From Methanomassiliicoccales archaeon (GTDB taxonomy: Archaea > Thermoplasmatota > Thermoplasmata > Methanomassiliicoccales > UBA472): a stretch of 64,000 bases of DNA. How positions within the stretch are numbered: position 1 is the first letter of the stretch; every line of letters starts with the position of its first letter. The stretch lies in NCBI GenBank assembly GCA_028682895.1, contig JAJRAK010000052.1, forward strand, positions 1 to 64,000, read 5' to 3'. The notes beneath the pieces are model-generated. The model made no database searches and had not been told where the DNA came from. It saw nothing but the letters and a program-made list of their open reading frames with translations. The translations under genes were made by a program, and so were the position numbers. Shown piece after piece: positions 25,169-29,862 of the stretch.

Positions 25169-25225
25169 GAACTGGTCCAGCATGACCTTTTCCCTTCCCC
25201 TCTTTTAAATACTGTCCACCGATTC

Positions 25226-25235
25226 TTTTAAATAT
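25226..25235 (+). promoter_or_regulatory. TATA box of the L3-SecY ribosomal operon
   Basis: TTTTAAATAT predicts a transcription start near 25257. A second, similar element (TTTTAAATAC) lies at 25203-25212, so two starts are possible. Pyrimidine-rich DNA just upstream (25184-25205) may terminate the RaSEA unit. Confidence 0.5.
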
Positions 25236-25256
25236 GATTGACGGTATGCGAGTTCT

Positions 25257-25444
25257 GCTCAACGCACTGAGGACGTTCGACCAGACCCCTTGGGCAATGC
25301 AAACGCATCCCTAAGCCGTTCCCCTAAGCACATTCTGGGGAGCGATGACGGTGTCACGGTCGAAGGTGCTGACCTCAACACTCTTGAGAACAGGCGTTAG
25401 CGTAAGAGAGTGTGCTCTCTCATGAGTAAGGGAGAGGGAGATCA
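25257..25444 (+). ncRNA. Structured leader of the ribosomal protein operon
   Basis: About 190 bases separate the predicted start from the L3 ATG. Several helices can form: 25317-25324 with 25337-25344 (8 bp, one G-U), 25276-25282 with 25358-25364 (7 bp, long range), 25346-25349 with 25353-25356, 25374-25378 with 25384-25388, and 25405-25410 with 25415-25420 (6 bp, tetraloop). The CUCUC of the last hairpin can pair instead with GAGAG in the L3 Shine-Dalgarno (25430-25440), so the leader could sequester the ribosome site. Autogenous control by an operon product is a plausible inference; the E. coli S10 leader is controlled by L4 in that way. Confidence 0.5.
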
Positions 25445-26446
25445 ATGTCGAACATTAGACGTCCGAGAAGAGGCTCCAAGGGATTCGGTCCCAGAAAGAG
25501 AGCCGTCAAGCAGACACCGAGACTGGATTCGTGGCCAGAGATCAGTGAAGGCCCGAAGGTCCAGGGATTTGCCGGTTACAAGGCAGGAATGACCCACGCG
25601 TTCATCGTGGACTACCGCAAGACCAGCACCACCGCCGGGCAGGAGATCAAGATCCCGGTCACCGTGCTGGAAGTGCCCCCTATGAAGGTGGCAGCGGTGC
25701 GCATCTACGAGAACACCCGCTACGGGCTGAAGACCGCCGGAGAGGTATGGGCTAGCCAGTTGGACGAGAATCTGTCCAGGCTGTTGCCCGTACCCAAGAA
25801 GGCCGAGCCCGAGGCAGCATGGGAGAAGATGAAGGGCGTTGACGTGGAGGACGTAAGGGTCCTCGCGTTCACCCAGCCGAAGCTGGTCTCTGGTATACCG
25901 AAGAAGCGCCCTGAGCTCATGGAGCTGCGCATCGGCGGCGGCACCATCGATGCCAGGGTCGAGTTCGCCAAGGGATTGCTAGGAAAGGATGTCGGCATCA
26001 ACGACTTCGCCAAATCTGGCGGGATGATCGACGTCATCGCCATCACCAAGGGAAAGGGCTTCCAGGGCGCCACCAAGAGATGGGGCCTGAAGCTGATGTC
26101 CCACAAGAACTCCAAGCACCGCCGCGCCATCGGTAACCTAGGTCCCAAGAGGCCGGGATACGTGCGCACTACCGTCCCCCAGAGTGGCCAGATGGGCTAC
26201 CACCAGAGGACGGAGGTCAACAAGCTCATCATCAAGATCGGTGAGAGCGGACAGGAAGTGACCCCCAAGGGAGGCTTCCTGCACTATGGCGATGTGAAGA
26301 ACCCCTTCGTACTGGTCCATGGATCCGTGCCCGGCCCCACCAAGAGGCTGGTCAGGATGAGGGATCCGGTCAGAAGGCAGATGGCCGACCTTAAGGAGGC
26401 GCCTGAGATGGTATATATATCCACCGAGTCCAAGCAGGGGGCGTAA
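25445..26446 (+). CDS. rpl3: Ribosomal protein L3 (uL3)
   Basis: A 333-residue archaeal L3, which helps assemble the 50S subunit and reaches toward the peptidyl transferase centre. The GGMIDVIAITKGKGFQGATK segment near residue 200 is the conserved finger. The N-terminal 20 residues are strongly basic. It is the first gene of the operon, with a strong GGGAGAGGGAG ribosome site. Confidence 0.97.
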   Translation: MSNIRRPRRGSKGFGPRKRAVKQTPRLDSWPEISEGPKVQGFAGYKAGMTHAFIVDYRKTSTTAGQEIKIPVTVLEVPPMKVAAVRIYENTRYGLKTAGEVWASQLDENLSRLLPVPKKAEPEAAWEKMKGVDVEDVRVLAFTQPKLVSGIPKKRPELMELRIGGGTIDARVEFAKGLLGKDVGINDFAKSGGMIDVIAITKGKGFQGATKRWGLKLMSHKNSKHRRAIGNLGPKRPGYVRTTVPQSGQMGYHQRTEVNKLIIKIGESGQEVTPKGGFLHYGDVKNPFVLVHGSVPGPTKRLVRMRDPVRRQMADLKEAPEMVYISTESKQGA

Positions 26447-26449
26447 GCA

Positions 26450-27220
26450 ATGGTCGACAACACTGTAAACGTATATTCGCTGACGGGAGAGGTCCTGAGG
26501 ACCCAGTCCCTGCCTGGCGTGTTCGAAACCCAGTTCAGGCCTGATGTAATACACAGGGCTGTAGTGGCCGAGGAGGCCAACAAGAGGCAGCCCTACGCAC
26601 CGAAGGCCGGTGCCGGTATCAGGCACTCTGTCGCCACCTGGGGAAAAGGGCGCGGCACTGCCCGTGTCCAGAGGATAGCCGGCGGATCGAAAGGTGCCGA
26701 GTCCCCTAACAACGTGGGAGGCCGCAGGGCCCACCCGCCGCGGGTGGAAAAGGTCTGGGCCAAGAAGGTCAACCAGAAGGAGCGCATGCTCGCCAGGTTC
26801 TCCGCCCTTGCCGCCACCGCTGATGTGGAGAAGGTCAAGGCCCGCGGGCACCAGTTCAAGGAGGAGCTCACCCTGCCGGTCATCATAGAGGACCGTCTGG
26901 AGGACGTAAAGAGCACCGCCGAGGTAATGGACGTATTGACGAGCATCGGTCTGGAAGGCGACGTGGCTCGCAGCAAGGACGCTATCCGCATCCGCGCTGG
27001 TCGCGGCAAGATGAGGGGCAGGCCATACCGCATGCCCCGCAGCCTGCTGATAGTCGTCTCCAGCGCTGACGCCGCAGTGGTGAAGGGCGCCAGGAACCTA
27101 CCTGGTGTCGAGGTCGCCTATGCAGAGGGGTTGAACCCAAGCCTGCTAGCGCCTGGAGGATTACCGGGGAGGCTGACCGTGTTCACTGAGGCCGCACTGA
27201 AGAAAGTAGGAGAGTGGTGA
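26450..27220 (+). CDS. rpl4: Ribosomal protein L4 (uL4, L1e type)
   Basis: A 256-residue large-subunit protein. The long basic loop GKGRGTARVQRIAGGSKGAE (residues 65-84) lines the exit tunnel. Length and fold are of the archaeal L1e type. In some organisms L4 represses its own operon, which makes it a candidate ligand for the structured leader upstream. Confidence 0.96.
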   Translation: MVDNTVNVYSLTGEVLRTQSLPGVFETQFRPDVIHRAVVAEEANKRQPYAPKAGAGIRHSVATWGKGRGTARVQRIAGGSKGAESPNNVGGRRAHPPRVEKVWAKKVNQKERMLARFSALAATADVEKVKARGHQFKEELTLPVIIEDRLEDVKSTAEVMDVLTSIGLEGDVARSKDAIRIRAGRGKMRGRPYRMPRSLLIVVSSADAAVVKGARNLPGVEVAYAEGLNPSLLAPGGLPGRLTVFTEAALKKVGEW

Positions 27221-27222
27221 GC

Positions 27223-27501
27223 ATGGCCAAGAAGATCCTGTTTTACCCGTATGTGACGGAAAAGACAATGAACTACATGACCGGCACGCCTACCCAGGAG
27301 TTCAAGGACGGAAACAAGATCGAGTTCATCGTGGACCGCTTCGCCACCAAGACGGAGATCAAGGTCGCCTTCGAAAAGTACTTCGATGTCAAGGTGGACA
27401 AGGTCTGGACCAAGATCTCCAAGGAAGGCAAGCACGCGGTCATAAAGCTCGCTGAAGGATACTCTGCCGAGGACATCGGCATGAGGATCGGAGTGTTCTG
27501 A
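27223..27501 (+). CDS. rpl23: Ribosomal protein L23 (uL23)
   Basis: A 92-residue protein at the tunnel exit, part of the docking site for SRP and the Sec translocon. YPYVTEKTMN near the N terminus is the family motif. ATG 27223 follows GGTGAG at the L4 stop; the GTG three codons earlier overlaps L4 and is less likely. Confidence 0.95.
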   Translation: MAKKILFYPYVTEKTMNYMTGTPTQEFKDGNKIEFIVDRFATKTEIKVAFEKYFDVKVDKVWTKISKEGKHAVIKLAEGYSAEDIGMRIGVF

Positions 27502-27512
27502 GGAGGGGGAAC

Positions 27513-28211
27513 ATGGGCAGACAATTGAGACAACAGAGAAGAGGTCGCGGGACCATGACCTATACTTCCCCGAGCCACAGGCACGTGGGAGAGATAAAGC
27601 ACCCTTACACACAACGTAAGGTCGGCAAGGTCATGGACATCGTGCACGCCCCGGGCCGCAACAGCCCGGTGGCGGAGATAAAGTTCGATGACGGAAAGAA
27701 GGACAAGATCATCGCCGTGGAAGGATTGACCGTCGGCCAAGAGATAAATGTGGACGGCACTGTCAACCTGAAGCCCGGCTGCATCTTGCCGCTAGCGAAC
27801 ATCCCCGAGGGTACCCTGGTGCACAACCTGGAGGCCCGTCCCGGAGATGGAGGTAAGTTCGTGAGGACCGCAGGGACCTACGCAACTGTGGTCACGAAGG
27901 GCGACACCATTGTGGTGCAGTTGCCCTCCGGCGCATTCAAGAACTTCGACCCCAGGTGCCGCGCCGGCATCGGGATCATTGCGGGCGGAGGGGCTTCTGA
28001 CAAGCCTTTCGCCAAGGCGGGTAAGAAGTTCCACGCCTACCGCAGCAAGAGCAAGGCATACTTTAAGGTGAAGGGAGTCGCCATGAACGCGGTCGACCAC
28101 CCCCACGGTGGTGGAGGTCACCCGCACGTTGGTAAGCCCAGCACAGTTTCGAGGAACGCTCCGCCGGGAAGGAAGGTCGGAAGGCTTTCACCCCAAAAGA
28201 AGAGGAAGTGA
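27513..28211 (+). CDS. rpl2: Ribosomal protein L2 (uL2)
   Basis: A 232-residue large-subunit protein needed for subunit joining and peptidyl transfer. NAVDHPHGGGGHPHVGKP near residue 190 carries the invariant His-rich loop near the active site. GAGGGGGA precedes the ATG. Confidence 0.97.
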   Translation: MGRQLRQQRRGRGTMTYTSPSHRHVGEIKHPYTQRKVGKVMDIVHAPGRNSPVAEIKFDDGKKDKIIAVEGLTVGQEINVDGTVNLKPGCILPLANIPEGTLVHNLEARPGDGGKFVRTAGTYATVVTKGDTIVVQLPSGAFKNFDPRCRAGIGIIAGGGASDKPFAKAGKKFHAYRSKSKAYFKVKGVAMNAVDHPHGGGGHPHVGKPSTVSRNAPPGRKVGRLSPQKKRK

Positions 28212-28217
28212 TTCTAG

Positions 28218-28685
28218 ATGGCAGCTGAAGAAGTAAAGCTAACTGGTACCAAGTCCTCGAGGAGGAAGCAAAGGAAGAAGAAGGGCATGATGACCGCCCG
28301 TAGGAAGAAGGAATTCACCTACCGCGGATACACCATGGAACAGCTCATGGAGATGCCCTTCGAGGAAATGGTCGACCTGCTACCGTCTAGGGTCAGAAGG
28401 TCCTTCCGCCGCGGACTCAACGAGGAACAGAAGACCACCTTCGACAAGATATGGTCCGGGGAACACGAAGTGGTACGCACCCACCGCAGGGACATACCGA
28501 TCGTGCCGGCCTTCGTCGGTCGCCGCGTGGCAGTATACAATGGAAAGGAATTCAAGGAAGTTGAGATCAAGCCAGAGATGATCGGGCACTTCCTGGGCGA
28601 GTTCGCCCTGACGAGGGGGGCTGTAAAGCACTCCGGTCCGGGTGTAGGTGCGACCAGGGGTTCCAAGTTCATGCCGCTGAAGTGA
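28218..28685 (+). CDS. rps19: Ribosomal protein S19 (uS19)
   Basis: A 155-residue small-subunit head protein. The C-terminal core GHFLGEFALTRGAVKHSGPG is diagnostic. The N-terminal 30 residues are very basic (KSSRRKQRKKK), longer than in bacteria but common in archaea. Confidence 0.95.
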   Translation: MAAEEVKLTGTKSSRRKQRKKKGMMTARRKKEFTYRGYTMEQLMEMPFEEMVDLLPSRVRRSFRRGLNEEQKTTFDKIWSGEHEVVRTHRRDIPIVPAFVGRRVAVYNGKEFKEVEIKPEMIGHFLGEFALTRGAVKHSGPGVGATRGSKFMPLK

Positions 28686-28696
28686 GGTGAAGAAAC

Positions 28697-29143
28697 ATGG
28701 TTGGATACACTGCAGAAGCTGATCCGGACACCACGTCCAAGGCCATCGCCAAGGAGCTCCCCATCTCACCTAAGTTCTCTCGCGAGATCTGCCGCATGGT
28801 GAGGGGCAAGAAGGTCGATGTCGCTATACGCATGCTCGAAGAGGTAGTCGAGATGCGCCGCGCCGTGCCCATAAAGAGGTACAACCTGGGAGTCGCCCAC
28901 AAGAAGGGCATAGGCCCAGGCCGCTTCCCTAAGAAGGCAGCGGCGGCAATAATCAAGGTGCTGCAGAGCGCCAAGAGCAATGCCGAATACAAAGGCCTCG
29001 ACGCTGACAACATGAGGGTGCGGATAATCTCCGCCCATCATGGAAGGACCATACCTGGTTACATGCCTAGGGCCCACGGCCGCAGCACGGCCTGGGACCA
29101 GCAGACCGTCAACATCGAGGTTATACTGGAGGAGGTTCAGTAA
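28697..29143 (+). CDS. rpl22: Ribosomal protein L22 (uL22)
   Basis: A 148-residue protein whose extended hairpin reaches into the exit tunnel. The AKELPISPKFSREICRMVRG region and the C-terminal AHGRSTAWDQQTVNIEVILEE are typical. Its stop overlaps the S3 start (TAATG). Confidence 0.95.
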   Translation: MVGYTAEADPDTTSKAIAKELPISPKFSREICRMVRGKKVDVAIRMLEEVVEMRRAVPIKRYNLGVAHKKGIGPGRFPKKAAAAIIKVLQSAKSNAEYKGLDADNMRVRIISAHHGRTIPGYMPRAHGRSTAWDQQTVNIEVILEEVQ

Positions 29144-29862
29144 TGGCCAGCGAAAGGAAGTTCGTGGCGGAGAACATCAGAAGGGTTCTCCTCAAGGAGT
29201 ATCTGATGAAGACCATCGACCGCGCTGGTTTTGGAGGCGTGGACGTGCAGAGGACCCCCATGGGGACCAGGGTCACCCTGGTCACCGAGAGGCCCGGCAT
29301 CGTCATCGGTCGCCGTGGAGCAGCCATCAAGTCGCTGACCAAGGCCATCGAGGACAATTTCCATTACGACAACCCCCAGATCGAGGTCCAAGAGGTCGAG
29401 AACCCCAACCTGAACGCCCAGATCATGGCCGAGAAGTTGGCCTTCGCTCTGGAGCGCGGCTGGCATTTCAGGCGCGCAGGGCACTCCACGGTACGCCGAA
29501 TAATGGAGTCCGGTGCCCGCGGGTGCCTGATCATCATCTCCGGTAAGCTTACCGGGGAACGCCACCGCACTGAGAAGTTCAAGGAAGGGTCGATAAAGTA
29601 CTGCGGTGAGACCAGGAACCTGTTCATAGGTACTGGGTTCGCCGTGGCCAAGCTGAAACCTGGAGTCATAGGCGTCCAGGTCGAGATCATGCAGCCGGAC
29701 GCACGCCTACCTGCCGAGATCGACGTCATGCAGATGGAGGCCGCGATACAGGCCAACCCTGACCTGGCGGACCTGCTGTGCAAGCAACAGGAGGCCTCAG
29801 TAATAGTCGAGCATCCGGCCGATGAAGCCCCCGTCGATGAAACGAAGGAGGTGGCTGAATAA
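29143..29862 (+). CDS. rps3: Ribosomal protein S3 (uS3)
   Basis: A 239-residue protein at the mRNA entry channel. The KH domain GXXG loop is VIGRRGAAIKSL near residue 49, and the C-terminal domain includes SGARGCLIIISGKLTGER. An acidic tail of about 20 residues (ADEAPVDETKEVAE) ends the protein. Confidence 0.96.
   Translation: MASERKFVAENIRRVLLKEYLMKTIDRAGFGGVDVQRTPMGTRVTLVTERPGIVIGRRGAAIKSLTKAIEDNFHYDNPQIEVQEVENPNLNAQIMAEKLAFALERGWHFRRAGHSTVRRIMESGARGCLIIISGKLTGERHRTEKFKEGSIKYCGETRNLFIGTGFAVAKLKPGVIGVQVEIMQPDARLPAEIDVMQMEAAIQANPDLADLLCKQQEASVIVEHPADEAPVDETKEVAE

Follow-up and report, generated by a model that had tools for sequence, protein, structure and literature searches.

The window, by which we mean the whole stretch of 64,000 nucleotides analyzed here, comes from a Methanomassiliicoccales archaeon and includes a ribosomal protein (r-protein) operon headed by L3, in the order L3-L4-L23-L2-S19-L22-S3..., as read from open reading frames and Pfam matches (table 1). 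In practically every locus bearing the motif described below, L3 is followed by L4 and L23. The gene upstream of L3 encodes a DUF5611 protein (PF18446; 24842-25168) and is separated from it by a gap of 276 nt; the same order of DUF5611 gene and leader appears in relatives as far as the Methanomethylophilaceae (two loci). Upstream of the leader, the window and three related loci carry a pair of TATA-like boxes separated by about 23 nt, which suggests tandem promoters or two start sites in the genus. Judging from the proximal box, the L3-operon mRNA would start near 25257. A scan for bacterial-type promoters and terminators returned none, as expected for an archaeon. A TATA box was present no more than 90 nt upstream of the core motif CCAGAC in 78 of 83 loci (median 51 nt), compared with 12.6% of shuffles, and because this upstream distance is fixed, the core begins close behind the transcript start.

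A sequence-only reading of this DNA had proposed that the region before L3 is a structured leader capable of hiding the L3 ribosome-binding site, a view at odds with transcription starting downstream of 25400. The position of the proximal TATA box speaks against such a late start. The helices named in that reading, one of 8 bp (P4), one of 7 bp (P1), and three smaller hairpins (P3, P6, and P5), are all found by direct reading at the positions in table 1, and the leader is more structured than chance would provide: for the predicted transcript (25257-25444) the folding energy is -72.9 kcal/mol (z = -3.2), a stability reached by 0 of 200 shuffles, and the slightly longer span originally proposed gives z = -2.35. 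To these elements we add a closing helix, P0 (25257-25265/25394-25401), a competing pairing that joins the P6 loop to the 5' arm of P5, and a clamp that extends into L3 coding sequence.

Table 1. Features of the L3 locus, with positions in the window and pairing partners.
Feature	Position	Strand	Remarks
Distal TATA-like box TTTTAAATAC	25203..25212	+	Direct reading; second TATA box at the same place in other genus members
Proximal TATA box TTTTAAATAT	25226..25235	+	Direct reading; predicts transcription start at ~25257
Leader of L3	about 25257-25444	+	Precedes L3 operon
P0 5' strand GCUCAACGC	25257..25265	+	Predicted mRNA 5' end; pairs with 25394-25401 (8 bp, one bulge); invariant in 19/19 family members; present in single-sequence fold
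Clamp strand GGACGU	25271..25276	+	Complements ACGUCC in L3 codons 5-7 (25459-25464); invariant in family
Core (P1-P2 with A / AC internal loop, three-way junction, P3, P4)	25276..25364	+	Covariance model R1
P1 5' strand UUCGACC	25276..25282	+	3' strand 25358-25364; 7 bp; abundant double changes at 5/7 pairs
P2 5' strand GACCCC	25284..25289	+	3' strand 25350-25355
P3 hairpin GGG-CAA-UGC-AAAC-GCA-U-CCC	25292..25311	+	UGC/GCA covaries with UCC/GGA and others
P4 hairpin	25317..25344	+	8 bp (one G-U); arms 25317-25324/25337-25344; up to 32 double changes per pair
P6 hairpin CUCAA-CACUC-UUGAG	25374..25388	+	Loop CACUCU conserved, stem sequence varies
Element A, ACACUCUU	25378-25385	+	Within P6 hairpin
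P0 3' strand GCGUUAGC	25394..25401	+	Invariant in 19/19
P5 hairpin AGAGAG-UGUG-CUCUCU	25405..25420	+	Predicted ON state, SD free
Element B, GAGAGUGU (P5 5' arm)	25406..25413	+	Partner: A (8 bp, predicted OFF) or, as GAGAG, CUCUC (P5, predicted ON)
Element C, anti-Shine-Dalgarno CUCUCUC	25415..25421	+	Complements GGGAGAG, 25430-25436
Element D, L3 Shine-Dalgarno GGGAGAGGGAG	25430..25440	+	SD GAGG at 25434-25437, overlapped by GGGAGAG
rpl3 (ribosomal protein L3)	25445..26446	+	Pfam PF00297, E 6.5e-89
Clamp target in rpl3, codons 5-7 (AGA CGU CC-)	25457-25464	+	
Downstream operon genes	26450..29862	+	L4 26450, L23 27214, L2 27513, S19 28218, L22 28697, S3 29143 (Pfam, ORFs)

Almost all Thermoplasmatota rpl3 leaders share a core of the pattern ..CCA-GACG..-GGGCAA-hairpin-CCC-(P4 ending UUYU-G)-..CGUC-ACGG... 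A covariance model (R1), home-made from 54 Thermoplasmatota rpl3 leaders and giving only rough E-values, matches the window at 25271-25370 (E 2.5e-19) and detects the core before rpl3 in 87 of the 90 loci examined from the phylum; one further source in the same search, beside the 90 loci, is an rRNA fragment. In an alignment of the 87 homologues (A2), 91.6% of cells form pairs, compared with 76.9% after shuffling, and 281 double changes were counted where shuffles give 76 +/- 7. Covariation scores 0.395, falling to 0.144 when shuffled and to 0.04-0.10 when the alignment is slid by 1-3 columns. Since A2 was fitted to R1 it is biased towards the model, but with an effect this large and with the support of the plain alignments the core structure is secure; leaders of the window's family align in near-perfectly identical blocks. 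P2 has one C.U mismatch in this family and reads GACGCC/GGCGUC in others, and the apical loop of P4 ends in a conserved UUCU before a G. The sequence-only reading had looked to covariation across relatives as a check on the leader, and for the core that check comes out strongly positive.

R1 was positive in 275 of 395 Thermoplasmatota genomes, nearly always with one copy per genome, and each of 50 inspected hits directly precedes rpl3, two of them on contigs that end just past its ATG. The genomes searched all belong to the Thermoplasmatota, with one haloarchaeal record from outside the phylum. A second model (R2) picks up 6 of 34 R1-negative genomes, including one of genus g16, whose cores, drawn from the leaders of 26 R1-negative loci, are divergent yet recognizable (CCAUACACG...CGUGUAACGG). 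In families f3 (five loci) and f7 (four loci) there is an apparent true absence of the core, and a TATA box lies near the rpl3 start, so that the L3 mRNA seems to be short-leadered or leaderless and the switch described below to have been lost. No L3 was found in viral contigs.

The distance from the end of the core to the start codon is 20-27 nt in Aciduliprofundum/DHVE2-type lineages, where the core adjoins the Shine-Dalgarno (SD) sequence as expected if initiation is controlled, and 38-153 nt elsewhere. A conserved core at a varying distance from the start is the pattern of a constant receptor joined to a variable expression platform, and the platforms outside the window's family do differ. 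Eight loci with Methanomethylophilaceae-type leaders have a small hairpin, UGUG(A)...(U)CACA/CGCA, that holds the rpl3 start codon in its loop and whose pairs change between loci, representing a different expression platform on the same core. Five loci carry a 5' hairpin, GGACA...UGUCC, upstream of the core; it overlaps the 5' strand of P1 and would therefore compete with P1, making it a candidate switch in that clade.

In the window's family, comparison of the leaders supports two mutually exclusive folds that would expose or hide the L3 SD. The 16S 3' end of a congener terminates in ...GGATCACCTCCT. As the sequence-only reading had noted, CUCUCU can pair either with GAGAG, forming P5, or with the SD; P5 and the C:D helix exclude each other, and the SD-hiding pairing is preserved in all 19 family members. 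The conservation of pairings on which that reading depended is thus borne out. The A:B complementarity (8 bp, -10 to -11 kcal/mol) is present in 18 of the 19, being broken in one, and element A is missing from three Methanomassiliicoccus loci. The P6 loop is constant over stems of changing sequence (CUCAA/UUGAG, CGAA/UUCG, AUGCA/UGCAU, and CAAAG/CUUUG). Judged on the window by itself, B is matched equally well by 2.1% of shuffled P6 hairpins, so the weight of A:B lies on its conservation. In all 22 related leaders that retain CUCUC/UCUCUC, the C:D hairpin exceeds the average stability of its spacer-shuffled versions.

The predicted energies of the leader tail are similar in the two states, at -11.4 kcal/mol with P5 enforced and -12.7 kcal/mol with the 5' arm of P5 kept unpaired, and the unconstrained tail folds at -15.0 kcal/mol with the SD hairpin formed. 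RNAalifold applied to the bare 19-sequence alignment gives a consensus of clamp, A:B, and C:D; the alternative fold, built from P0 (GCUCAACGC:GCGUUAGC), P6, and P5, keeps the SD unpaired. These family-specific helices (A:B, C:D, P0, and the clamp) show almost no variation, with little or no covariation of their own, and so rest on conservation.

The clamp is a third long-range helix, GGACGU:ACGUCC, reaching from the leader to L3 codons 5-7 (RNAalifold columns 15-20/208-213). Synonymous sites of its target are frozen, with 49 of 50 Methanomassiliicoccales loci keeping AGA and 48 keeping CGU, even though CGU makes up only 8% of the arginine codons in L3. At 16 of 17 other conserved L3 arginine sites the commonest codon is kept in 38-80%, and at the remaining one in 94%. 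A 7-nt complement, GGACGUU:GACGUCC, occupies an identical position in every leader of the window's family and the Methanomassiliicoccus group. Codons 5-7 (AGA CGU CC) are frozen throughout the Methanomassiliicoccales, including those loci in which the complementary leader strand follows the core rather than preceding it.

The RNA combines covarying secondary structure with a consistent position in the 5' untranslated region of r-protein genes, and its location before an r-protein operon, single copy, receptor-like core, and SD-hiding platform together define an r-leader. We therefore interpret it as a new r-leader through which excess operon protein would control translation autogenously by way of an SD-hiding platform, and put the probability of this reading at roughly three in four. 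The case for autogenous control comes from position and precedent; the mode of control is probably translational, the OFF fold would be the ligand-bound state, and the ligand would be a product of the operon. We favor L4 for that role by analogy with the Escherichia coli S10 leader and the prediction for Archaeoglobi discussed below. A search for 23S or 16S rRNA mimicry with the R1 model and a descriptor gave nothing above chance, so that mimicry supports no particular ligand; a short CCA...ACGG likeness at 23S 1874/1923 (base-of-H68-like) is within chance and was not used. It also seems reasonably probable that the RNA represents an undescribed, phylum-wide class of archaeal r-leaders, probably ancestral to the Thermoplasmatota, which in one family carries a four-strand attenuator-like translational switch (A:B and C:D versus B:C) together with a coding clamp. 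We know of no such combination of four-strand switch and long-range coding clamp described for archaeal r-protein mRNAs.

Under the proposed mechanism the mRNA would run from about 25257, its first 190 nt comprising the receptor core (P1-P4 with the three-way junction) and then the expression platform. In the absence of ligand P0, P6, and P5 would form and the SD would be free. A surplus operon r-protein would bind the core instead of its own rRNA site and favor the OFF fold, in which the P6 loop (A) would take the 5' arm of P5 (B), releasing the anti-SD (C) to pair with the SD (D), while GGACGU would also clamp onto L3 codons 5-7. Hiding of the SD as modeled would thus provide a structural route to repression in the window's family.

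It is possible that the core instead binds a small molecule or ion and that the same SD-hiding switch sets r-protein synthesis as a riboswitch. Near-invariant unpaired bases of aptamer-like appearance (A and AC of the P1-P2 loop, CAA of P3, and UUYU of P4) would fit such a role, as would the variation of platforms between clades, but the core occurs once per genome and solely before rpl3. Riboswitches are commonly found before metabolic or transport genes as well, r-protein operons being the typical home of protein-binding leaders, and we consider a riboswitch improbable. A similarly low probability attaches to the idea that the leader is constitutive, either enhancing stability or translation or offering a site to a general RNA-binding protein such as L7Ae, with no feedback. 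Structure at the 5' end can shield an mRNA, and one report suggests that L7Ae acts on archaeal mRNAs (PMC5539422); however, a switch fits the conserved exclusive helices at the SD and the frozen L3 codons better than a static element does. The tandem G.A pairs beside a 3-nt bulge that mark a kink-turn are not visible in the core alignment, and a kink-turn/L7Ae site in the core was rejected. Very improbable is a free-standing small RNA whose gene is merely located before rpl3: it would account for the separate TATA box, but the strand is constant, the core always lies 20-153 nt before rpl3, no terminating T run intervenes between core and ATG, and the pairing partners lie within the SD and L3 codons.

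The remaining alternative is a refinement of the r-leader interpretation, bearing on origin and ligand, and does not contradict it. A leader predicted upstream of rplC-rplD-rplW-rplB in Archaeoglobi, L4-Archaeoglobi (RF03135), was rated borderline by its authors (PMC7247131; Eckert and Weinberg 2020), and the present RNA might share an ancestor with it and have diverged beyond recognition, which would make it an L4 leader by descent. The two hold the same operon position, and by eye the printed consensus has a matching layout of P1, asymmetric loop, P2, three-way junction, P3 (GGG-(U)CAA-UG..C), and P4. Against this, the RF03135 model does not reach its gathering cut-off in the window or in 14 diverse leaders and has zero hits in 60 Thermoplasmatota genomes, and R1 scores at most 2.2 bits at the RF03135 site of Natronorubrum, which lies inside coding sequence. 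With the models failing in either direction and the likeness only visual, homology was rejected as an assignment and the RNA is not filed under RF03135; descent from a common leader keeps a minor share of our expectation. More broadly, Rfam 15 searched against the window and 14 diverse homologues at gathering and permissive thresholds returned chance hits only.

To our knowledge few archaeal cis-regulatory RNAs have been described. Published r-leaders are mostly confined to narrow lineages, with 1 of 20 spanning more than one phylum (PMC7247131). The L3-leader RNA is recognizable in most of the searched genomes across a whole archaeal phylum. As an r-leader it would illustrate how a large r-protein operon is kept in step with rRNA in archaea, and its two folds supply a specific model of archaeal translational switching that can be tested, with a core small enough to be a target for direct binding, probing, and structural work. 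The sequence-only reading had regarded archaeal L3/L4 leaders as not well described, and we found no published description of a Thermoplasmata L3 leader in the open-access literature, but it had overlooked the existing prediction for Archaeoglobi (PMC7247131; RF03135).

That leader resembles ours in being archaeal, in preceding the rplC-rplD-rplW-rplB operon, and in having a three-way junction with P3 as GGG-CAA-UG(g)C..., and differs in its P1/P2 loop, gg/aAcc there versus A/AC here. In Natronorubrum bangense (NZ_CP031306.1) the RF03135 match (positions 2443-2542 of locus L137) falls in frame within an RNA methyltransferase coding sequence (..RVNCGLQHPI..) upstream of L3, whereas the present RNA is a noncoding leader. 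The RF03135 consensus can itself be read as protein (RVNGGFATPDPPP), so that this family, named for the L3/L4 operon in archaea, may be partly a protein-coding artefact or dual-use sequence and calls for caution. The archaeal S15 and eL15 r-leaders lie before other genes and possibly resemble rRNA sites, a resemblance that we could not establish for the present RNA; like the present RNA they are structured, supported by covariation, and placed before r-protein genes (PMC7247131). Feedback by an operon product, as we propose here, links our leader to that of the E. coli S10 operon, and so does an r-protein operon with L3, L4, L23, and L2; no relation in sequence or structure was found between the two. 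The S10 leader is controlled by L4 and acts on transcription too, whereas here SD hiding alone is proposed. In Methanococcus vannielii, MvaL1 provides an archaeal precedent for autogenous translational control, of the L1 operon; there both operon and ligand are others, and the target is a simple site resembling rRNA, in place of which the Thermoplasmatota L3 leader has a three-way junction and, as we propose for the window's family, a switching platform.
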